Assembly (NCBI GenBank): GCA_012523135.1
Contig: JAAYJD010000296.1
Coordinates: 1-48,769, forward strand
DNA from: Clostridiaceae bacterium
GTDB lineage: Bacteria > Bacillota > Clostridia > Saccharofermentanales > UBA5734
DNA: 48,769 bases
Reading direction: 5' to 3'
Both the position numbers and the translations under genes were made by a program. Below are positions 2,007 through 13,755 of the stretch, one piece after another. The notes under the pieces were generated by a model, which saw only the letters and a program-made list of their open reading frames with translations, was not told the origin of the DNA and did no database searches. Numbering within the stretch: the stretch's first letter is position 1; every line of letters begins with the position of its first letter.

Positions 2007-2093
2007 AGCCTGCGGGCTGTAGAAGGTAGGTTGCGCGTCTGACCGCCGCCAGGCGAACAGGCCCGGAACCTACAGGCTACCGCTCCGCAGGTT
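2007..2093 (+). promoter_or_regulatory. Structured 5' leader of pnp (long-range inverted repeats)
   Basis: Nested complementary segments are visible: AGCCTGCGG (2007-2015) with CCGCAGGTT (2085-2093), and inside it GTAGGTT (2026-2032) with AACCTAC (2067-2073). Alternative pairings CTGTAG (2017-2022)/CTACAG (2070-2075) and GGTAG/CTACC share the same bases. In E. coli the pnp leader forms a long stem cut by RNase III, after which PNPase represses its own synthesis. A similar autoregulatory role here is inference. Confidence 0.45.
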
Positions 2094-2124
2094 GACGAAA
2101 ACAAAACCTTACGGAGGTAAAGAA

Positions 2125-4428
2125 ATGGAAAAGATCTTCAAAACAACATTGGCCGGAAGGCCTCTGGTTATCGAGACCGGAAAACTGGCGCAGTTTGCCA
2201 GCGGTTCCTGTCTTGTCCGCTACGGCGACACGGTGATCCTGTCAACGGTGACGGCTTCGGCTTCGCCCAGGCCCGGCGTCGACTATTTCCCGCTCAGCGT
2301 CGACTACGAGGAGAAGCAGTACAGCGTCGGTAAAATCCCGGGCGGCTTCATCAAGCGCGAAGGCCGGCCGACCGAAAAGGCCGTCCTGACCTCACGGGTC
2401 ATCGACCGCCCAATGCGTCCGCTGTTCCCCAAGGATCTGCGCAACGACGTCGCCGTCAACAACCTGGTCCTGTCCGTCGACCAGGACTGCTCGCCTGAAA
2501 TCGCCGCCATGCTGGGCACTTCGATCGCCACCAGCATCTCGGACATTCCCTTCAACGGCCCGATCGCCGGCGTCCATGTCGGCCTGGTCGACGGCAAGGC
2601 GGTCATCAACCCGGACGAAGCGCAGCGCAAAGTCAGCCAGATGGCGGTCACGCTGGCCGGAACCAAAGACAAAATCTGCATGATCGAGGCCGGTGCCAAC
2701 GAAGTTCCCGACGATGTCATGCTGCAGTCGATTATCGAAGGGCACCAGGTCATCCATGACTTGTGTGTCTTTATTGAGGGTATCGCCAGCGAAATCGGCA
2801 AGCCCAAATTCACCTACCAGGCCGTCGATGTGGCCGAGGATGTCTTCGCCGCCGTCAAGGCATTCGGCTACGAGACGATGCGTCAGGCCGTGCTGGCCGA
2901 GGACAAGAGCGACCGCGACATCGCGATCGCCGACCTGCAGGCCAAGACCGCCGAGCACCTGGTCGCCCTCAACCCCGAATGGGAAGGGCTGGCCGGCGAC
3001 GCCATCTACAAACTGGAAAAGAAAGTCGTGCGCGAATACCTGGCCAAGGAACACCGCCGCGTCGACAGCCGCGGCCTGGACGAGATCCGGCCGCTGTCCG
3101 CCGCCGTTGGCCTGCTGCCGCGCGTTCATGGCAGCGGTTTGTTCCAGCGCGGCCAGACCCAGGTGCTGACCACCTGCACCCTGGGTCCGCTATCCAAGTC
3201 CCAGACGCTGGACGGCCTCGACAACGAGGAAGAAAAGCGCTACATGCACCACTACAACATGCCGGGCTATTCCACCGGTGAAGCCAAGTTCGCCCGTTCG
3301 CCCGGCCGCCGCGAGATCGGCCACGGCGCGCTGGCCGAGCGCTCCCTGGTTCCGGTTCTGCCCGACGAAGAAGCGTTCCCGTATGCCATCCGCTGCGTCT
3401 CCGAAGTCACCATGAGCAATGGCTCGACCTCGCAAGGCTCTGTCTGTGCCAGCACCCTGGCCCTGATGGACGCCGGCGTCCCGATTCGCCGCCCGGTCGC
3501 CGGCATCTCGGCCGGCCTGATCGTCAACGAAGAGAATGCGTCGGACTACATGGTCTTCATGGACATCCAGGGCATCGAGGACTTCTTCGGTGACATGGAC
3601 TTCAAGGTGGCCGGCACCACTGAGGGCATCACCTCGATTCAGGTCGACATCAAGGTGGACGGCCTGACCTTCGACATCATCCGCGACGCCTTCGCCCTGA
3701 CCCGCAAAGGCCGGCTGCAGATCATCAACGATGTGCTGCTGCCCTGCCTGCCCGAGCCGCGCCCCGACCTGTCACCTTATGCGCCCAAGATCATCCAGAC
3801 CGTCATTCCGGTGGACAAGATCCGCGACGTCATCGGTTCCGGCGGCAAGATCATCAACCGCATCATCGACGAGACCGGTGTCGAGATCGATATCGAGGAT
3901 GCCGGCCGCGTGTTTGTGGCCTCACCCAACAGCGCGGCTGCCGAAAAGGCGCTGCAGATGATCCACGGCATCGTCAACGACCCCGAGCCGGGCACTGTGT
4001 TTGACGGCCATGTGACCCGCCTGATGAACTTCGGCGCTTTCGTCGAGTTCCTGCCGGGCAAAGAAGGCCTGGTGCACATCTCCAAACTGGCCTGGAAGCG
4101 CGTCGAAAAGGTCGAGGATGTCGTCAAGGAAGGCGATCCCGTCCGCGTCAAGGTCATGGAAATCGACAGCCAGGGACGCATCAACCTGTCCATCCGGGAC
4201 ACGCAGGAGAAACCGACGGACTTCAACGAGTATGACACGTCGGAATCCCGCGGCCCCCGCAACATCGACCGCCGGCGCGACGGCGGCCGTGATGGCGGAC
4301 GTGACGGCGGACGCAACGGTGGCCGCAGCGGCCCCAGCCGCGGTCCGCGCGAGCGCAATTTCCGCCACGACAGCGCGCCGGAAAGCAACCCGAACGAACC
4401 GCCGCGCGGCAATGTGCGTGACTTTTAA
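2125..4428 (+). CDS. pnp: Polyribonucleotide nucleotidyltransferase (PNPase)
   Basis: Phosphorolytic 3'-5' exoribonuclease of RNA turnover, a trimer in the cytosol. The 767-residue protein has two RNase PH domains (about 10-225 and 310-550) linked by the alpha-helical domain. Core motifs include the GRREIGHG substrate site and [17 protein letters not shown] domain ([20 protein letters not shown]) near 565-590 and an S1 domain ([28 protein letters not shown]) follow. The tail beyond the S1 domain is Arg/Gly-rich with four consecutive four-residue repeats (D/N-GGR), an RNA-binding-like extension. The start is ATG 2125 with GGAGGT at 2113-2118. The long structured leader suggests autoregulation. 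Confidence 0.98.
4279..4326 (+). repeat. 4 x 12-bp tandem repeat coding a D/N-GGR tail in PNPase
   Basis: Four in-frame 12-base units (4279-4290, 4291-4302, 4303-4314, 4315-4326) encode [16 protein letters not shown]. The units differ at synonymous positions, so this is an old expansion maintained at protein level rather than a recent slippage. Confidence 0.85.
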
Positions 4429-4481: not shown

Positions 4482-4523
4482 TTGACAGAATGGCCCCCTG
4501 CCTCTAAAATTGAAAAAGTTCGT

Positions 4524-4600
4524 CGGGGTGTAGCTCAGGTGGCTAGAGTGCTTGCTTGGGGTGCAAGAGGTCGCAAGTTCAAGTCTTGTCACTCCGACCA
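4524..4600 (+). tRNA. tRNA-Pro(GGG)
   Basis: A 77-base cloverleaf with acceptor arms CGGGGTG and CACTCCG, a discriminator A and an encoded CCA (4598-4600). The anticodon stem CTTGC/GCAAG closes a TTGGGGT loop with GGG at 4558-4560. The T loop reads TTCAAGT. Tightly followed by a hairpin and T-run. Confidence 0.95.
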
Positions 4601-4607
4601 TAGAGAA

Positions 4608-4639
4608 GGCTGGAAGCAATATGTTTCCGGTCTTTTTTT
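4608..4639 (+). terminator. Terminator of tRNA-Pro
   Basis: An 8-bp stem including two G-U pairs, GGCTGGAA (4608-4615) with TTCCGGTC (4625-4632), is followed by seven T residues. Confidence 0.75.
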
Positions 4640-4710
4640 GTACGACCCTGTCAGCATGGCTTCAGACATCCGCCATATGGCTCGCTACTGCTCCGGTGTG
4701 CGGGCCACTG

Positions 4711-4719
4711 TGGTAAAAT
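4711..4719 (+). promoter_or_regulatory. Extended -10 element upstream of the GH2-like gene
   Basis: TGGTAAAAT matches an extended -10 box (TGnTAnAAT) 31 bases before the start codon. No good -35 hexamer is seen, which is usual for extended -10 promoters. Confidence 0.4.
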
Positions 4720-4749
4720 AGGGGCGAATGACAAAAAAGGAGGCCGATC

Positions 4750-7614
4750 ATGCAGGTGCCGATTTATCCCGGCCGCGGAAGCTGGCCAGACTGGAACAAT
4801 CCGGAACTGCTGGAACGCAACCGGTTGCCGTCCCATGTCAGCCTGATTCCTTACCCCGACCAGACCAGCTGCCGTCACGCCCTGGAGAACCATCGCCGCT
4901 ATTTGTCGCCGTCCGTCATATCGCTGCGCGGGGAATGGGATTTCCGCTTCTATGCCAGCACGCTTCAGCTGCCGGAGAACATCCTGTCGTTTCGCTCCGG
5001 CTTCGAGAAGCGCCCCCTGCCGGAAATGGCGCCGGTTCAGCCGGTCCTGCTCGATCCGCCAGGGCTGCCGTTCACGCTCGATCCGCCCCATGTCCCGTCT
5101 GAACAGCCGGTTCTGGTCTATCGGCGCACCTGCCGCCTGCCCCTGGTCTGGAGCAGCCTGCGCAAACGCATCGTGCTGCATGGTGTCCGCTCGGCCTGCC
5201 ATGTCTTCGTCAATGGTAAGCTGGCCGGCTACACACAAGGCAGCGGCCTGATGGCGGACTTCGATATCACCATGCTCCTGCACGACGGCGACAACGAAGT
5301 TTTCCTGATCGTCTATCCCTACAGCTGCGGCAGCTACCTGGAGACGCAGCCCAACCGGCCCTGGTATGGCTGTGTCCACGAAATCACCCTTGAGGCGCTG
5401 CCGGCGATCACGGTCCACGACCTGCAGCTGCGCACGGTCTGGCTCGCCGAAGCACAAGCCTGGCGATTGGATATCACGGCCTTGCTGACCTCTTGCCGCA
5501 TCGCCGTGGAGCAGCCGGTCCTGCACGCCTCGCTGCGCCAGCAGGACGAAGCTCTCTATGACGCCAGCTGGACCGTGGCGATGCGGCCGGCGGATCCGGA
5601 TGTCTTTGCCGCGCCGGTCCAGACGACCGGCCTGCTGCAGGCCAGCCTGATGGTGCGCGATGTCAAGCCCTGGAACGACGAGGAACCGAACCTGTACGAT
5701 TTGTTTGTCAGTCTGGAAGACACGCGTGGCCGCGACATCCTCTGTGTCCACCAGGCGGTCGGCTTTCGCAGCCTCGATTGCCGTGACCGCCGCCTGTTTG
5801 TCAATGGCCGCGCCGTCAGCCTGAAAGGCGTCCGCTGGTCCGGTCTCGACCTGCCTGATCCGGCCCAGGACATCGCCGGCCTGGTCCGGACCTTGCGCAC
5901 GTACAAGAACAGCCATTTCAACACCATCTGGTTTCAGCACGAGCCGCCCGACCCGATCGTCCTGGATTTGTGCGACATTTACGGTTTCTACGCGGTGGTC
6001 GACGCTCCGCTTGCAGCAGCCGGACGCGACTGGATCCGGCCCATGCGCAAAATCCGCCCGGAGCTACCGGCGCGCTGGGCTGAGGACCGCCTGAAGCGTC
6101 TGGTCGCGCGCGACAAAAACCATCCCTGTGTCGTCCTCTGGTCGTGCGGCCTGTTCCTGCAGCCTGAGCAGCCGGACGGGTCACGCCAGCTGGCCGAACA
6201 CGTCCGCGCGTCAGACCCGACACGTTATCTGCACGGACTGGATATCCCGGACCTCGGGATCCGGCTCGACCGCTGGCTGAACAGCCAAGAACGCCTGGCC
6301 GACCTGGACTGGCTGGGATTACCCGATCCCGACGCAGCCGGCTGGTGTTATCTGGATCATGAGGAAAATCCGGATCTGCTGCCGGCCCTGAGCCAGCTGC
6401 TGTGTCCGTTCCGGATCAGTCCGGTCAACCCGATCGTCGGCACATTCAACCTGCATAACCACATGGTCTGGTCAGCGGCCGGACAAATCCGCCTCAGCTG
6501 GTCGTTGCTGCGGCAGGGAAGTGCCGTCCTCAGCGGCGAGCTGGACAACCTGCACGCCGCTCCCGGGCAAACGCAGGCTTTGTCCCTCTGGTACGGGGAC
6601 CAGGATTTCAGCGACGGAGCCGAATACCTGGTCCGCTTCGACCTGCGCCAGGCAGACGACCTGCTTTGGCGCCCGGCTGGCAAGTTGATCCGGAGCCAGG
6701 AGTTCATGCTGCAAAAATCCGACCAGCCTGTATCGGCCGGCACCGGTCACGGCGGGCGACTGCGCCTGGAATCGGAGCGCCATCACCTGATCGTGTCGGG
6801 CCCGCGCTTCTGGCTGGTCTTCAACCGGATCAACGCCAGCCTGGAGAGCTGGCGGACCGGTGACCGGGAGTTCTTCGCCGCGCGAACCAGCCAGGGAAGC
6901 CAGCTGTCGTTTTTGCAGCGTCCCGCGCTTGCCGGGCTGCGCTGCAGCCTGATGCGTCTGCCAGAGCCGACCGACGGACCGGACTGGCCGCAATGGCTCA
7001 ACGCCGGTTATGACCGCCTGACCACCGAGGTCGTCGCCCTGGAAGACGGCTGTGACGGCCGCAGCGCGGTCATCGAGCTGAACGCGCATCTGGGCGCGCC
7101 GGGACACACGCCCGCTTTCGCCCTGACGCAGCGCTATGAGATCGCGGCCCAGGGCGGCATCCGGTTGTTTGCCAGCCTGACGCCGCTGGACGGGCAAATC
7201 CTGCCGCCGCCGCTTTTCGGCTTCGCTTTCAATCCGGCCAGACCCTACCAGAACGTATCCTGGTATGGCTGCGGCCCGCAGCGCCAGCTGAGCCGGGTCG
7301 ACCTCAGAACCGGCAGCGGCCACCATGACCTGACGCTGAACCACTTGCTGCAGCCCGACCGCGAACCCGGCGTCTTCAAGGACATCCGGCGCCTCAGCCT
7401 GCGTGACGACAACGGCTTTGGCCTGGCCGTCAGCTCTGACCACCTGTGTGCTTTTGATGTCCTGCCGGTCGCGCTGCCCGGACCGTTTACCGCCAGGGAA
7501 GCGGCCAGCGACACATCCAGAGCGATCGTGCTGGTCTGCCACCAGGGCAGCCTGAACTGCCAGCCCCTGACCGAACCGCTCAAGCTGGTGCTGGATCTGA
7601 CGCCGGTCGTTTAG
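4750..7614 (+). CDS. LacZ-architecture GH2 protein lacking the catalytic glutamates (probable pseudoenzyme)
   Basis: A 954-residue protein with the beta-galactosidase domain order. The GH2 sugar-binding domain starts WNNPELLERNRLP and includes LRGEWDFRFY; the immunoglobulin domain follows. A TIM-barrel remnant spans about 340-540, then a domain-4 region, then a Bgal_small_N-like domain (HLIVSGPRFWLVFNRINASLESW to SWYGCGPQ). LacZ active-site motifs are replaced. NRHEHH reads RWSGLD (362-367). DEANIETHG reads VDAPLAAAG, with Ala422 at the Glu416 position. WSLGNE reads WSCGLF (464-469), so the acid/base Glu is Phe469. The segment holding the nucleophile Glu537 is missing: roughly 80 residues of late barrel are absent. 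His397 (LacZ His391) remains. No signal peptide. ATG 4750 has AGGAGG at 4738-4743. The frame is open throughout, so this is not simple decay. Confidence 0.85.
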   Translation: MQVPIYPGRGSWPDWNNPELLERNRLPSHVSLIPYPDQTSCRHALENHRRYLSPSVISLRGEWDFRFYASTLQLPENILSFRSGFEKRPLPEMAPVQPVLLDPPGLPFTLDPPHVPSEQPVLVYRRTCRLPLVWSSLRKRIVLHGVRSACHVFVNGKLAGYTQGSGLMADFDITMLLHDGDNEVFLIVYPYSCGSYLETQPNRPWYGCVHEITLEALPAITVHDLQLRTVWLAEAQAWRLDITALLTSCRIAVEQPVLHASLRQQDEALYDASWTVAMRPADPDVFAAPVQTTGLLQASLMVRDVKPWNDEEPNLYDLFVSLEDTRGRDILCVHQAVGFRSLDCRDRRLFVNGRAVSLKGVRWSGLDLPDPAQDIAGLVRTLRTYKNSHFNTIWFQHEPPDPIVLDLCDIYGFYAVVDAPLAAAGRDWIRPMRKIRPELPARWAEDRLKRLVARDKNHPCVVLWSCGLFLQPEQPDGSRQLAEHVRASDPTRYLHGLDIPDLGIRLDRWLNSQERLADLDWLGLPDPDAAGWCYLDHEENPDLLPALSQLLCPFRISPVNPIVGTFNLHNHMVWSAAGQIRLSWSLLRQGSAVLSGELDNLHAAPGQTQALSLWYGDQDFSDGAEYLVRFDLRQADDLLWRPAGKLIRSQEFMLQKSDQPVSAGTGHGGRLRLESERHHLIVSGPRFWLVFNRINASLESWRTGDREFFAARTSQGSQLSFLQRPALAGLRCSLMRLPEPTDGPDWPQWLNAGYDRLTTEVVALEDGCDGRSAVIELNAHLGAPGHTPAFALTQRYEIAAQGGIRLFASLTPLDGQILPPPLFGFAFNPARPYQNVSWYGCGPQRQLSRVDLRTGSGHHDLTLNHLLQPDREPGVFKDIRRLSLRDDNGFGLAVSSDHLCAFDVLPVALPGPFTAREAASDTSRAIVLVCHQGSLNCQPLTEPLKLVLDLTPVV

Positions 7615-7637
7615 TCCAAAAAAGGAAAAAAAAAGAT

Positions 7638-7661
7638 AAAAGCCAGGCATGCCTGGCTTTT
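7638..7661. terminator. Bidirectional terminator between the GH2-like gene and leftward units
   Basis: A perfect palindromic stem, AAAAGCCAGG (7638-7647) and CCTGGCTTTT (7652-7661) around CATG, gives U-runs on either strand. It ends the rightward GH2-like gene and would also serve the leftward tRNA-Trp remnant at 7670-7738. Confidence 0.8.
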
Positions 7662-7669
7662 CACGAATC

Positions 7670-7738
7670 TGGCAGGAGAGACGCGGTTATCAGCAACCGG
7701 CCGTTTGGGTGTGCGACTAACGCTCGTTCAGATCGACC
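7670..7738 (-). pseudogene. Decayed tRNA-Trp-like remnant
   Basis: Read leftward, the last 18 bases (CGCGTCTCTCCTGCCA plus two) match the 3' end of the intact tRNA-Trp at 12694 with one mismatch in the acceptor. CGGTTGC and the CCAAA of the anticodon region also align. The T loop has lost about three bases including the TTC core, and the 5' half no longer pairs, so it cannot fold as a tRNA. Clear similarity covers 7670-7711; the rest is weak. The likely origin is a duplicated tRNA 3' part left by an integration, or a decayed tandem tRNA. Confidence 0.5.
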
Positions 7739-7829
7739 ATGCATGACGCTGCGAATAAGCTGACCTCCGGGCACTTTCAGCAGACCATATTAAGGACAAC
7801 GGGGTCAATGGTTTGGTGACGTGGCCGGT

Positions 7830-10800
7830 TTAGGCAGGCCTTTGTTTCCTGCGCTTCATCAGCAGCACGATGCCGACCATCAGCAACAGCAACAGTCCTC
7901 CACCGACATAATAGGGCCAGCGAGCTGGCCCGGGCGGGCTGTCGGCAGAAAGATTGACCGCTAAGGCATCCGAACCGATCGTGTTGTTGAGCTTGGCTGT
8001 TGTGATTAAATATTCAGACATCATGTTGTTCTGATACGATACGACGCCGCCCGCAGCCACCGTGACATTTTCGGCGATCGCCGTGAATTGCTGGCTGGCC
8101 GCATCGTATTTGTAAACCTGGACGCTCGTACCGGCCGCCAGATCCGTAACGATGTCAAACCGGGCGAATCCGGGCAGACTGTTGTTATGCGCAAACATGA
8201 AGGTAAAGGACGCAGCTTCTCGGCCGGCCGCTTCCTTCATGGCCGTTTCACTGACTGCCTGGTTGGAAAACGCGAAGTCATATCGCTGGCCGGTTGGCGG
8301 AGATTCGGTCGATCCACTCATAAACGTCATGGTCGCGCCTTCCTGTCCGAATGATAGGCTAACGTTCGCCGCTGACCGGTCTTTCAGCGCGCTGAAGACG
8401 CTGCCCGGCACAATCGTGCCGATTTCGCCGCCCAGTCCGATCTCCAGGGTGCCCGACTTCATTCCGGCCACAGCACTCATGACGCTTCCATAATCAAAAA
8501 CGGACCAATCAAGAAAGTCATCCGCCAGGTTGACATCCAGTCGTGCATCAAGATCCGGTCCGAATCCCACTCGTTCGTACTCGATAAATAGGCCGCGATT
8601 TTTGAAATAGTCCTCAATGGCTTTGCGCTCCTCGTCGCTCATGGCCGTCAGATGGTGGTCGTTGCAGGGACTGTTGTCAAATTCGCGGATCTGGTATTTT
8701 TCACCGTCTGCCATGAATTCGATCAGCAAGTCATACTTGACATATTCGGCTCCCGATACATAGAGCATGTCCTGGGAATACAGGTCTTTGGGGTCATCGT
8801 TGCGCAGGACGTATTCAGGCGTGCCGACGATTTGATCCGTCCAGCTGCCGGCGCCAGGCGCGATGGTCGCAGGCATCGTTGAACCCGGCTGCACGGAAAC
8901 CGGGGAATAACTGAGCTGGGAATACCCGGATTGCGAATCCTGGCTGGACTGAATTATAGGACTGAACAGGTTTTTAACCTCCAGTATGAAGCGCTGCTGA
9001 TCCGAGCCATAGGGATTGACCGCGTTGATGTAGAAATAATATGTACCTGCCGGCACCGAACGCGCAACAGTCAGATGGGCCAAGTCCGTCCGATCCGGAT
9101 CTTTTTCTAGTGTCACCCCAGCTGGAATCGGCCAGTCCGGCAGTTCGGACAACGTAAACGCAATCGGTAGCGTACCGGTCGCGGTTACTGTGAACTCTCC
9201 ACCACGAAGCCTGTAAATCGTGGTCGTTTGGGCGCTCGTGATGGTCGGCGGTTCGGGGACAAGCGTTGGCGTTGGTGTCGACGTTGGCTTCGGTGTGACC
9301 GTCGGTGTTGGTGTCGACGTTGGCTTCGGTGTGGCCGTCGGCGTTGGTTTCGACGTTGGTTTCGGCGTGACCGTCGGCGTGGTCGTCGGCGTCGGTTTCG
9401 CCGTCGGTTTCGGCGTGACCGTCGGTGTTGGTGTTGACTTCGGTGCTGGCGATAGCGTCGGGGCAGGTGTCGGCGTCGCCTCGGGCGCTTCCAGGACGGT
9501 CAGCGTAAAGTCTTGATAAACCGGCGGGTATGAATCCTCCGCATAAACCTGTTTGATCCCAGGCAGTAGGCTACCCGGATCGACGATGAGCGCGTTCTCT
9601 TTGCCCGCCGCAGCTTCGATTGTGAACGAATACACGCCGGGCACCAGATTTGGATCGATGGTCATCGGGCCTTCCTCGGCCAGCGTCACCCCTGGGATGG
9701 CCGGCAAAGCGCTGAAGCGGATCGGTTCATCTCCGGTTGCCGTGACCAGGAAAGAACCGCCTTCCGTCGTGCATTCATAATGATCGGCGCTGGTGATGAC
9801 CGTGGGATTGCTGTGCGCCGGCCAGACCCATTCCTTGACCAGCATCAGGTCGACATAAGAGGTTCCATTCGTCTGGTCATTGACCAGACCGACGTTGGCG
9901 CTGTTCTCGATCGCGATAGAAGAGGAGGATTGAATCACGAGGTTCTGGGTCGCGTTGTTGACGGTTTTACCGTCACCGGTTCCGTAATACTGCATCTCGC
10001 CATGGATGTTACCGGCCCAATAGCCATTCGTCGAGCGGTCCTGGGTGGACAGTCCGTGCAACGTGACTGTCGCCGGTATGTTGGTCAGCTGTCGGCTGCC
10101 GCCCATGTTGATGACATAGATTCTGGTTCTTGACTTGACCTGGTCGACCGTGTCCGCACCCTCCATGAAGCGGGTGGAGGTTCCCGGAACGGTTTCCGTC
10201 ACCGTCTTCAAGGCGAATTGGGTATGTGGCGATACATAGGATGTAAGCGAGCATAGCGCGTTGTCCTGGTCGATGGACGCGGTGAACCGGTGTTCGTTTC
10301 GTACATCGAGTGGCGGATCCCATGCCTTCAGTCCGCCGTTATAGGCTCTGAATGTGCCGTCAGGCCCGGCGGTCACATGTACCGTGTACAAGGTCGTACG
10401 CATATTATTCTTGCTGTTTTCGAGCTGGACATCAATTTCAACATCACCCTGGAAAAACAAGGTCTCATGATCTTCCTCGCCGGGCTGCTTGTCCCAGTTG
10501 CGGACACGCGCCGGCTCGACCTGGCCTTCGATCCAGTCATTGAACGCGTCAGCGGCGGTAATCCGAATGTATCGGAACGGATACGTGGCAGCGATCGGCT
10601 TGCTGGGTCCGTAGATGTCATACATCTGCTTGCCCTGCTGCACGTACTCCACATATACCTTGATCGCGACGAGATCGCTGACCTTGAGATCCAGGTCGGG
10701 GTCATGCACCAGAAAACGGCCCGCCTGATCTGTGCTGTAGAAACCGTAGTTGCCAGGATATGTGGTTTCCTGGTTGGTCAGCGGGTTGGTTACGACAATT

Positions 10801-12314
10801 CTAAAGCGGGCGTCCGCTGCGTTGACGAGGGCAACTTCGCCTCCCTGGGTTACGCTCTTTTGCAGGAAACCGACGACAATGTCCTGGTAGGCACAGCTCT
10901 CCTCGAGCGTCACCCGATACCCGCCCATGTCCTTTTGTTGCTTGCGCAGAAGCGTCGGTTTGAGATGAACCAAATAATATGTGTCCCCGATGAAGGTGAT
11001 GTATACCTGGACCAGCCCATACAACTCGATGTCCAGAAGCCCATCCGCGCTGGTGATATTGACCCCCGAACCGATGAACACGCCGGCTCCGACCAGGTCC
11101 CAGCCAAAGATCTCCAAGGACAAAAGCGCACCGGCTTTGACAAACCCGTTGATCATGCCGTCCACCTGGACATCGCCGGAGAAATAGCGCTCGGGTATGC
11201 TCACGAACGGTTTACAGGACACGGGCGCGTAAAAGAACGTGTCGCCCTTCACGCCCGCTTTGCCCTGCATGTATTCGCGCGCTTCCATCTGGATCGTCAC
11301 CTTGCCGTCCAGGCCGACGACCACGAACAGCCCGCCGCTGACCCGGCCAACGCCGAAAGGTACGTCGATGCCCAGGATCGGGATGCGAATCTCTTTGGTG
11401 ACATTGATGCCGACATCGACGTTGAGGTAAGCCTCCTGGGCGACTTTCAACGCGAAATAATAGCCGCTGAAACCGGAATACTTGGCCTCCAGTCCGAGAT
11501 CACCCACACCTATGCCGCCCGTTACACGCACGGTTATGTTCTGGTCACCCGACTTGGCCTGCAACTCGGTACCCTCCGGAAAATCGAACTGGATCAAGGG
11601 GTCCTCGAGGTTTCGGAAAGCGGCCTCGGACGCCCTCGCTGCCGTCTGCATCACCGGATTGGACGTGACGATGTATTGCTCGACCGACCCGCTAGGACCG
11701 GCCGGCAGCCCGGCAAAACTCGTGATGTTGGCTTTGTTCAGCGCCACATCGGACATGGGTATTTTCAAGTCGTCGACGACTTCGTGAATCTGGGGCCGTG
11801 TGACGGCATAGTGGTCCTGAAGGTTTTCAAAACCCTCCGTGTCATCCATCGCCACAACCACTTTGAAAGCCGTACCTGTCGCCGGGTTGACAAAAACGGT
11901 GTCCGGCTGGATCGTCTGATTGGTGCCGACCGCCTGCTCCAGAACAGAGCGCTTAATAAAAGCGCCATTTGACACGACGCGCATGGTGGGGGTAAAAGCC
12001 TTGGAAGCGTTCAGTGTCAGCTCGCTGGCCGACCTGATGTTCTGGTCAAAATCGGGGCCGACCTGGATCACGTTCTCTTTGAGGGTATAGGTCGCGTTCA
12101 GCTTTGCCGGCTGCTGCCCGCCGCTAATCTCCTTCCAGGCTGCGCTGGCCGGTGTGAAATTGAAGTGAAATCCGGCTGTTTTCGAAAAATTCGTAAAATT
12201 CAGCAACGAAAAATCCGGGACGGACGGCTGGATGTTGGTTTGTTCAGCGAGAAGCGGATGGGAAAGTGACAGGATCAACAAAATAACCAAGAAGACCGAG
12301 ATGACCTTTTTCAT
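7830..12314 (-). CDS. Large membrane-anchored surface protein with Ig-like domains and Pro/Thr linker
   Basis: A 1494-residue exported protein of unknown function. It has a classical signal peptide ([18 protein letters not shown], cleavage near LLAEQ) and a long beta-rich N-terminal region (to about 830) without a family I recognise. Two Ig-like modules (about 838-925 and 1020-1105) share the GGxFxVTATGxxPIxF pattern. The TPTPT/KP-rich linker at about 943-1018 separates them. A C-terminal domain is followed by one transmembrane helix and a basic tail (KRRKQRPA); there is no LPxTG motif. The minus-strand ribosome site GAGGGG precedes ATG 12314. Base composition is visibly less GC-rich than its neighbours, and orientation is opposite to nearly all other genes, suggesting acquisition. 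An adhesin or cell-surface binding role is inference. Confidence 0.85.
9265..9450 (-). repeat. Degenerate 36-bp tandem repeat coding the Pro/Thr linker
   Basis: Units at 9265-9300, 9301-9336 and 9337-9372 are 36 bases, 9373-9420 is an expanded 48-base unit, and 9421-9450 is a partial one. On the coding (minus) strand they encode [11 protein letters not shown]-type repeats. Variation in unit length indicates recombination or slippage within the coding sequence. There are no spacers, so it is not a CRISPR array. Confidence 0.85.
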
Positions 12315-12658
12315 AGTAATCCCCTCATCAAATGATTAAATTAAGCGCGCCTGCTGTTATGTTTCTGAAAATGAGTCATTCGGATAAATTTGTTATCATT
12401 TTATCATGATTCCAGCAACCTGTCATCAATCGGGATGCTCTGGCTTAGTCGTCACATGGCGCTCAAAGTCAGCTTATCCCCGTCTCAAGTGACCATCGGT
12501 GCGAGCCGATGTGAAACAGAACATCGGAGTTTCATGGGCTCATGATATCGGCTGGGAGGAAACGGAAACTGGTCGCCAGCGCGGTTGCGCGGCAGACAGC
12601 GCTGTGGTTTCCAGCTTTCTGAGCCCGCGCTTTGTGATTATGGATGTAGGCAAATGCG
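12315..12658. other. AT-richer intergenic region with overlapping hairpins
   Basis: No gene is seen in this 344-base stretch. It holds the presumed leftward promoter and, at 12494-12534, competing inverted repeats. CATCGG (12494-12499) can pair with CCGATG (12506-12511), or CCGATGT (12506-12512) with ACATCGG (12521-12527). TGAAAC (12512-12517) and GTTTCA (12529-12534) also match. The segment lies downstream of the tRNA-Trp terminator and upstream of the surface gene. Confidence 0.5.
12398..12406 (-). promoter_or_regulatory. Candidate extended -10 for the surface-protein gene
   Basis: On the minus strand TGATAAAAT (12406 to 12398) fits TGnTAnAAT, leaving a leader of about 80 bases before ATG 12314. 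The -35 is not evident at normal spacing. Confidence 0.35.
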
Positions 12659-12690
12659 AAAACCCGCAAGCCATATGGCCCGCGGGTTTT
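12659..12690 (-). terminator. Terminator of tRNA-Trp
   Basis: A 9-bp stem, AAAACCCGC (12659-12667) with GCGGGTTTT (12682-12690), lies immediately past the tRNA 3' end. Read leftward, the stem ends in TTTT. Confidence 0.75.
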
Positions 12691-12693
12691 GTC

Positions 12694-12768
12694 TGGCAGG
12701 GGAGACGCGATTCGAACACGCAACCGACGGTTTTGGAGACCGTTGCTCTACCGTTGAGCCACTCCCCT
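12694..12768 (-). tRNA. tRNA-Trp(CCA)
   Basis: Read leftward, a 75-base cloverleaf has acceptor arms AGGGGAG and CTCCCCT, discriminator G73 (typical of tRNA-Trp) and an encoded CCA. The anticodon stem ACGGT/ACCGT closes a CTCCAAA loop; the anticodon CCA corresponds to plus-strand 12734-12736. The T loop reads TTCGAAT. It is one of the few leftward units and borders the accessory region. Confidence 0.95.
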
Positions 12769-12942
12769 AAGACCGAATCAAATCATAACATTGCCGTTCC
12801 GGACTGTCAACAGCCCATGCCGGTGCTGTCGCCTTTTGACGCGGCTGTTCTGTTTGCATGTCCCGGCCTGGAATGATATCATTTGACTGAACTGCCATGC
12901 CGGAATTTTTCATCTGGCTCAGGCAAAACGGAGGTGCATGAC

Positions 12943-13755
12943 ATGGTTCTGGCCGTGATCGGAACCGGCAATATGGGGCGTGCCCTGACCGAGGGGATGG
13001 TGCGGACGCAAACGCTTGATCCGCTTCAGATCCGTCTCTTTGACGCGGACTCCGCCAAGGCCAAGGCGCTGGCGCTGTCATTGGGCGCGTCGGCTTGCCT
13101 GAGCCTGGAAGACGCCGTATCAGGTGCCGATGTGCTCCTGATCGCCGTCAAGCCTCCGGTTGTCCCGGACGTGCTGGGGCACATCCGACCGCTGCTTGCG
13201 CGCCAACTGGTCGTGTCCATCGCCGCCGGCGTGACGCTGGCTTCTTTGCGCGCCCTGGCCGGACCGGAAGTCGCCCTGGCCCGCGTCATGCCCAACACGC
13301 CCGCCCTGGTTGGCGCCGGGGTCAGCGCCGTTTGCTTCGACCAGGCCAGCGACGAGCAGCAGACACTTGTCCGCTCGCTGCTTTTGGCCTGCGGACGCGT
13401 CTACGACGTTCCGGAATCCGCTCTGGATGCCGTCACAGGCCTCTCCGGAAGCGGCCCGGCCTACATCATGCTGGTGATCGAGGCCCTGGCGGACGGCGGT
13501 GTACGCAACGGCCTGGCACGGGATATGGCCCTGGAAATGGCCGCCATGACCGTCTACGGTGCCGCGTCTTTGGTCCTGGAAACCAAAACCCACCCCGCCG
13601 TACTCAAAGACCAGGTCTGCTCGCCGGGCGGAACCACGATCGCCGCCGTGGCCAGCCTGGAGGCGGACGGCCTGCGTTCGGCCCTGATCCGGGCCGTCGA
13701 CGCAGCGACCCGACGCGCCGCCGAGCTGCGGCAGAAGGCGGGCCCGGATGCCTGA
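12943..13755 (+). CDS. proC: Pyrroline-5-carboxylate reductase
   Basis: Last step of proline synthesis, reducing pyrroline-5-carboxylate with NAD(P)H; cytosolic. The 270-residue protein begins with the Rossmann motif VIGTGNMGRALTEGM. It has AVKPPVV, the RVMPNTPALVGAG segment, and the C-terminal P5CR signature GLSGSGPAYIMLVIEALADGGVRNGL with DQVCSPGGTTI. The start chosen is ATG 12943, because GGAGGT lies at 12930-12935 and the Rossmann strand begins at once; an in-frame ATG at 12883 would add a non-homologous leader. It overlaps rnhA by eight bases (ATGCCTGA), starting a translationally coupled series. Confidence 0.96.
   Translation: MVLAVIGTGNMGRALTEGMVRTQTLDPLQIRLFDADSAKAKALALSLGASACLSLEDAVSGADVLLIAVKPPVVPDVLGHIRPLLARQLVVSIAAGVTLASLRALAGPEVALARVMPNTPALVGAGVSAVCFDQASDEQQTLVRSLLLACGRVYDVPESALDAVTGLSGSGPAYIMLVIEALADGGVRNGLARDMALEMAAMTVYGAASLVLETKTHPAVLKDQVCSPGGTTIAAVASLEADGLRSALIRAVDAATRRAAELRQKAGPDA

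Follow-up and report, generated by a model that had tools for sequence, protein, structure and literature searches.

The window, that is, the whole stretch of 48,769 nucleotides analysed here, is one contig of a 3.4-Mb assembly in 366 contigs. It carries a gene for a GH2 protein of the LacZ type (Table 1) at a locus where most genera keep the order pnp, tRNA-Pro (GGG), GH2, tRNA-Trp (CCA), proC. The preliminary description had pointed to an uninterrupted frame of 954 codons with a ribosome-binding site, and both were found: the frame opens with ATG, contains no interruption and is preceded by AGGAGG 6 nt upstream. A terminator-like hairpin lies between tRNA-Pro and the GH2 gene, which suggests that the latter has a promoter of its own. 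Apart from the landmarks the neighbours vary, and comparison of the family loci gave no operon partner; the variable neighbours and the hairpin together thus leave nothing in an operon to point to a pathway.

The locus is not uniform in the family. In one genus (g3), an intact LacZ (L053) occupies the same place, on a stretch that ends before proC. In another (g8), about 130-140 bases separate the two tRNA genes, and the GH2 gene is absent from between them. Genus g4 has the GH2 gene in inverted orientation to pnp, with tRNA-Pro adjoining it in one genome of two (L055). Outside the domain-5 motif described below, the two g4 copies (L055 and L054) have diverged more than any others. The interval between the tRNA genes (L044-L058) gathers lineage-specific genes, such as those for membrane proteins or large surface proteins and a lipoprotein-like gene; pnp and proC, by contrast, are mostly fixed. 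The 1494-aa protein encoded there in the window has an 81% identical copy adjoining the GH2 gene in another genome (G004, L059), in the same interval. Two of the proC matches (G010:C82:5593-6402 and G017:C272:68586-69392) contain one in-frame TGA each, which could be an assembly error or alignment beyond the true start.

Table 1. Features of the locus, in positions of the window
Feature	Position	Strand	Remarks
pnp (PNPase)	2092..4428	+	upstream landmark
TTGACA-17-TAAAAT promoter-like site	4482..4510	+	probably for tRNA-Pro
tRNA-Pro (GGG)	4524..4600	+	conserved upstream landmark
Interval between tRNA-Pro and tRNA-Trp	4600-12694		lineage-specific genes
Hairpin and T-run after tRNA-Pro	4602..4640	+	terminator-like, -20.2 kcal/mol, z -6.7
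Ribosome-binding site	4734..4749	+	aaaaaaggaggccgatc immediately 5' of ATG; sequence
Putative pseudo-beta-galactosidase gene	4750..7614	+	954 aa, LacZ-type GH2 fold without catalytic site; ORF, domains, site table, dN/dS, tree
Domain 1	4921..5394	+	GH2_N jelly roll, residues 58-215; Pro at N102 and D201
Domain 2	5395..5778	+	Ig-like GH2, residues 216-343; Pfam PF00703
Domain 3, truncated TIM barrel	5779..6354	+	residues 344-535; PF02836 only 3-159/302
Domain 4	6355..6729	+	LacZ_4, residues 536-660; Pfam
Domain 5	6730..7611	+	Bgal_small_N fold, residues 661-954; Pfam, AF2, Foldseek
Domain-5 hotspot	6754..6873	+	residues 669-708, GRLRLESERHHLIVSGPRFWLVFNRINASLESWRTGDREF; near-immutable in the clade without the catalytic site
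1494-aa protein	7830-12314	-	N-terminal signal-like stretch, Pro/Thr-rich repeats, C-terminal membrane anchor; no Pfam match
tRNA-Trp (CCA)	12694..12768	-	downstream landmark
proC	12883..13755	+	downstream landmark

The five Pfam domains of LacZ (GH2_N, GH2, GH2_C, LacZ_4 and Bgal_small_N) were all found in order and above cut-off, GH2_C at profile positions 3-159 of 302 only, and with the Foldseek result they place the protein in GH2 as a sequence and fold family. The best matches in a sequence search of the PDB were LacZ enzymes (E 1.6e-56). In domain order, Pfam domains and overall fold the protein is like the LacZ-type beta-galactosidases of E. coli, Paenibacillus barengoltzii (9m0e) and Thermotoga (6sd0). 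No signal peptide was seen by eye on the window protein, which is presumably cytoplasmic.

To map the catalytic site, the protein was aligned with 21 intact relatives of the LacZ type, all of the same bacterial order; positions are named after E. coli LacZ. The window protein has Pro for N102 and P201 for D201, and in the barrel S364 replaces H357, A422 E416, A424 H418, L468 N460 and F469 E461; E537, H540, Y503 and D598 fall inside a deletion. Between fixed flanking columns there are 62 residues, compared with 135 in each of the two nearest relatives that are active and 150 in the active LacZ of the host genome itself. The deletion of 73 or 88 residues, respectively, includes the E537 region and agrees with the "about 80 residues" noted earlier, although the loss of W568, counted among them, depends on the alignment (a gap in one, W in another). 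Of the sugar and metal contacts N102, D201, H357, H391, E416 and H418, only the His at the H391 column is present in this copy, and it is lost in most orthologues.

The same gene occurs in 15 other assemblies and is thus not an artefact. It was found in all five genomes of the window's own genus and, within the same uncultured clostridial family, in four more genera, 16 genomes in total, recorded as metagenome-assembled Clostridia under the labels Clostridiaceae, Oscillospiraceae, Eubacteriales or Mageeibacillus sp. All 16 copies have lost the catalytic residues that the 21 intact relatives retain, as expected from the earlier reading of a LacZ-like GH2 protein with its active site erased. At the position of the acid/base Glu461, none of the 16 has Asn-Glu. 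The nucleophile Glu537 is deleted in the window's genus and is D, A, P, Q, S or a gap in the other genera, and most of the nucleophile segment is gone in several copies, those of the own genus among them. The replacement residues vary by genus, and the expectation of identical substitutions among orthologues holds within a genus and fails between genera. Displaced but present glutamates had been named as evidence against erasure, and every site-less copy was inspected for them. One member of genus g2 (L047/L019) has a Glu one residue before the nucleophile column, but this residue is Ala in its close relatives L045 and L046 and is therefore not a migrated nucleophile; no migrated glutamate pair common to the clade was found in the barrel. 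The window protein probably does not hydrolyse glycosides.

In the IQ-TREE phylogeny the site-less copies form one clade (support 100/100), joined by an intact enzyme of genus g5 (L052; 99.5/100) and then by the intact enzyme of g3 (L053; 100/100). The FastTree phylogenies agree. This fits a single loss of catalysis in the ancestor of the five genera. In the PNPase tree g3, g5, g7 and g8 group together (99), apart from the sampled genera that carry site-less copies. The g5 copy, closer to the site-less clade in the GH2 tree, thus has a different placing in the two trees, and it is not adjacent to pnp. The host genome of the window also carries intact LacZ copies, and in G001, G013 and G014 (92-96% complete) the site-less copy is the only GH2 match. 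No relative was found in viral contigs.

The loss of the site has not been followed by decay. Nei-Gojobori dN/dS between site-less copies was 0.127 in the own genus, 0.164 in g9 and 0.14-0.19 in g2, compared with 0.06-0.135 for pairs of active LacZ. In simulations of neutral drift along one lineage since the nearest split, 19 stop codons arose on average (minimum 8 in 500 runs), and none is observed; every one of the 16 frames is intact over whatever stretch its contig holds. Catalytic motifs are thus lost while purifying selection continues across lineages, and the comparisons strongly support the view that the gene encodes a conserved pseudoenzyme. The earlier suggestion that it is selected as a non-hydrolytic protein and not merely decayed gains much from one ancient loss followed by full-length frames in five genera and dN/dS below 1 in the three genera measured (0.13-0.19). 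An intact orthologue combined with a neutrally evolving copy would have spoken for decay; one related genus does have an intact copy at this locus, yet the site-less copies are not evolving neutrally. The full-size protein very probably has a different job.

Where selection acts has changed. The barrel has become the most relaxed domain, with dN/dS 0.24 between site-less copies versus 0.05 between active pairs, whereas at residues 669-708 the values are reversed, 0.012 versus 0.17. Synonymous sites in this motif change as often as those elsewhere (pS 0.45). It is thus the protein that is constrained and not the DNA, and an overlapping element can be ruled out. Mean identity across genera shows the same exchange: 0.65 in site-less versus 0.21 in active copies for the motif, and 0.22 versus 0.48 for the barrel. 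Overall, the genera with site-less copies are only 25-40% identical. The motif is a 40-residue beta-meander with the consensus LRLExDRHHLIVSGxRFWxVFNRIxxxLESWR, and its invariant positions include R672, R677, H678, S683, G684, R686, F687, W688, F691, N692, S700, W701 and R702. Other positions conserved specifically in the clade are C41, K139, H151 and H178, the last three lying, with the likewise conserved R138, in domain 1.

Among the 188 genomes of the order, a profile of the motif matched 17, which belong to a single family and have exactly one copy each, and none of the others. In the rest of the class there were weak matches only; three in family f42, when checked, had a fully intact site, and two more were in f7. 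A sample of the phylum gave no match. L118, L119 and L120 of family f42 are intact LacZ-type enzymes with a weak domain-5 motif, and they adjoin two conserved small genes. Within the own family, the intact g5 enzyme reads RFWIVFNRFSGTFESWR at the motif, with the core present, which suggests that the new site predates the loss of catalysis; the intact g3 enzyme has little of the motif. The order of motif first and loss second is less secure than the single loss, because the placing of the g5 copy differs between the trees and the copy lies off the pnp locus.

Structure prediction and comparison with LacZ, proposed as a check in the preliminary description, gave a LacZ-like fold. An AF2 model of the whole protein, built from a 14-sequence alignment of the named records of these loci, reached pLDDT 76.5 and pTM 0.63. 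Its barrel is partial, comprising strands 1-5 and a single late one, and Foldseek matched the model to LacZ over the full length (E 1e-65), though with TM 0.53; the arrangement of the domains is therefore uncertain. Domain 5 alone was modelled better (pLDDT 82.9, pTM 0.83) and matched LacZ domain 5 (E 6e-18, TM 0.73), with the hotspot forming its first four strands. The top 50 Foldseek matches of domain 5 were only LacZ-type GH2 proteins and included no epimerase or other enzyme, and a mutarotase or epimerase identity of this domain was rejected on that account.

We consider that the protein is probably a vertically inherited, neofunctionalised pseudo-beta-galactosidase that acts inside the cell as a binding or scaffold protein through domain 5. 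An ancestor of the clostridial family would have carried a LacZ between tRNA-Pro and tRNA-Trp. A relative of that LacZ would have gained the beta-meander rich in Arg, His and Trp, with which domain 5 begins, while catalysis was still intact, as in the g5 enzyme. A single loss of catalysis would then have followed in the common ancestor of the five genera, leaving the barrel free to diverge and shrink. The LacZ-like multidomain fold may have been retained as a scaffold presenting the domain-5 site, helped by the conserved domain 1 and N-terminal patches. Judging from the pattern of conservation, a partner or ligand would be bound via the domain-5 patch, whose Arg, His and Trp residues would suit an anionic ligand or the surface of a protein or nucleic acid. 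Some of the conservation of the motif could, however, have structural reasons. The 'binding scaffold' of the first description is thus possible and is the part of its proposal that we prefer. A more specific course of events is conceivable, if tentative: the patch, having arisen in a working enzyme, may have recruited the LacZ scaffold for a non-sugar role (e.g., RNA, nucleotide or protein binding) or for new domain-5 chemistry, after which the active site was discarded, and the g5 enzyme would then be a possible bifunctional intermediate in a living relative.

Alternatively, the protein could still be an enzyme, with a new or migrated site in domain 5 (R672, R677, H678, S683, R686, N692, R702) or one rebuilt elsewhere. 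The motif is polar, invariant and as constrained as a catalytic site would be, and LacZ domain 5 is a beta-sandwich of the mutarotase-like kind, a fold that is used by enzymes. We nevertheless regard this as unlikely, as the top 50 structural matches of domain 5 are to LacZ-type GH2 only, the motif contains no recognisable catalytic acid pair other than E699 and E707, and the barrel holds no migrated glutamate pair common to the clade. A carbohydrate sensor that uses the ancestral galactoside pocket without hydrolysis, as the preliminary description had suggested, would have precedents in the glycan-binding pseudoglycosidases of other families (GH18 YKL-39 and others; PMC7828330). Here, however, the ancestral sugar pocket is not retained: nearly all sugar-contact positions are replaced, and differently by genus, the nucleophile segment is mostly deleted in several copies, the barrel is the fastest-evolving domain, and constraint now lies in the domain-5 motif. 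Selection does not keep the old pocket, and this sensor is therefore very unlikely.

A regulatory or structural subunit of active LacZ, or titration of the enzyme via mixed oligomers, would be in keeping with the intact LacZ that some carriers, such as the genome of the window, also have, and inactive GH28 proteins do act in the pathway of the active ones in beetles (PMC6549527). Co-occurrence with active LacZ is not found in every carrier, as the site-less copy is the only GH2 protein detected in three fairly complete genomes, and as a general role this is hardly probable. The chance that we are looking at a decaying pseudogene, open by accident, is close to negligible: an erased active site and a variable, partly deleted barrel are what decay would produce, but dN/dS stays well below 1 after the loss, and the expected stops are missing from a gene carried open in 16 genomes.

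Proteins that have kept a glycosidase fold beyond catalysis are known from other families, namely YKL-39 in GH18, klotho in GH1 and CyRPA near GH33 (PMC7828330). They come from eukaryotes, and in some of them the old site still binds glycans, whereas the protein described here is bacterial and its old site is unconstrained. Closer to our preferred reading of a binding protein acting through domain 5 is MKIP1, an inactive homologue of starch-branching enzyme that serves as a chloroplast splicing partner of MatK (PMC13172542). In both, a carbohydrate enzyme would have become inactive and taken on a binding role away from its old site, the binding being putative in our case; the plant protein gained a 150-residue insertion, in contrast to the re-used domain-5 beta-meander. 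In GH2 itself, a survey of subfamilies describes the nucleophile as an invariant Glu (PMC12243196), and the present clade belongs to the same family without that Glu. No described GH2 pseudoenzyme was found in the literature searched, which mostly did not cover subscription papers, and the precedents were in other families only.

Compared with LacZ-type enzymes, including the intact LacZ at the same locus in g3, this clade is without catalytic residues and its constraint lies in domain 5; the barrel of the window protein is shorter by 73-88 residues. It is, as judged from comparative sequence data, a conserved GH2 pseudoenzyme in which constraint has measurably left the active site for another domain. 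Few enzymes have been studied as thoroughly as LacZ, and a whole clade with an erased site under strong selection is unusual. The annotation 'beta-galactosidase', when given from domain matches alone, is wrong for these copies. Intact, motif-bearing and site-less forms occur side by side in a single bacterial family, which makes the sequence of steps from enzyme to pseudoenzyme directly testable there.
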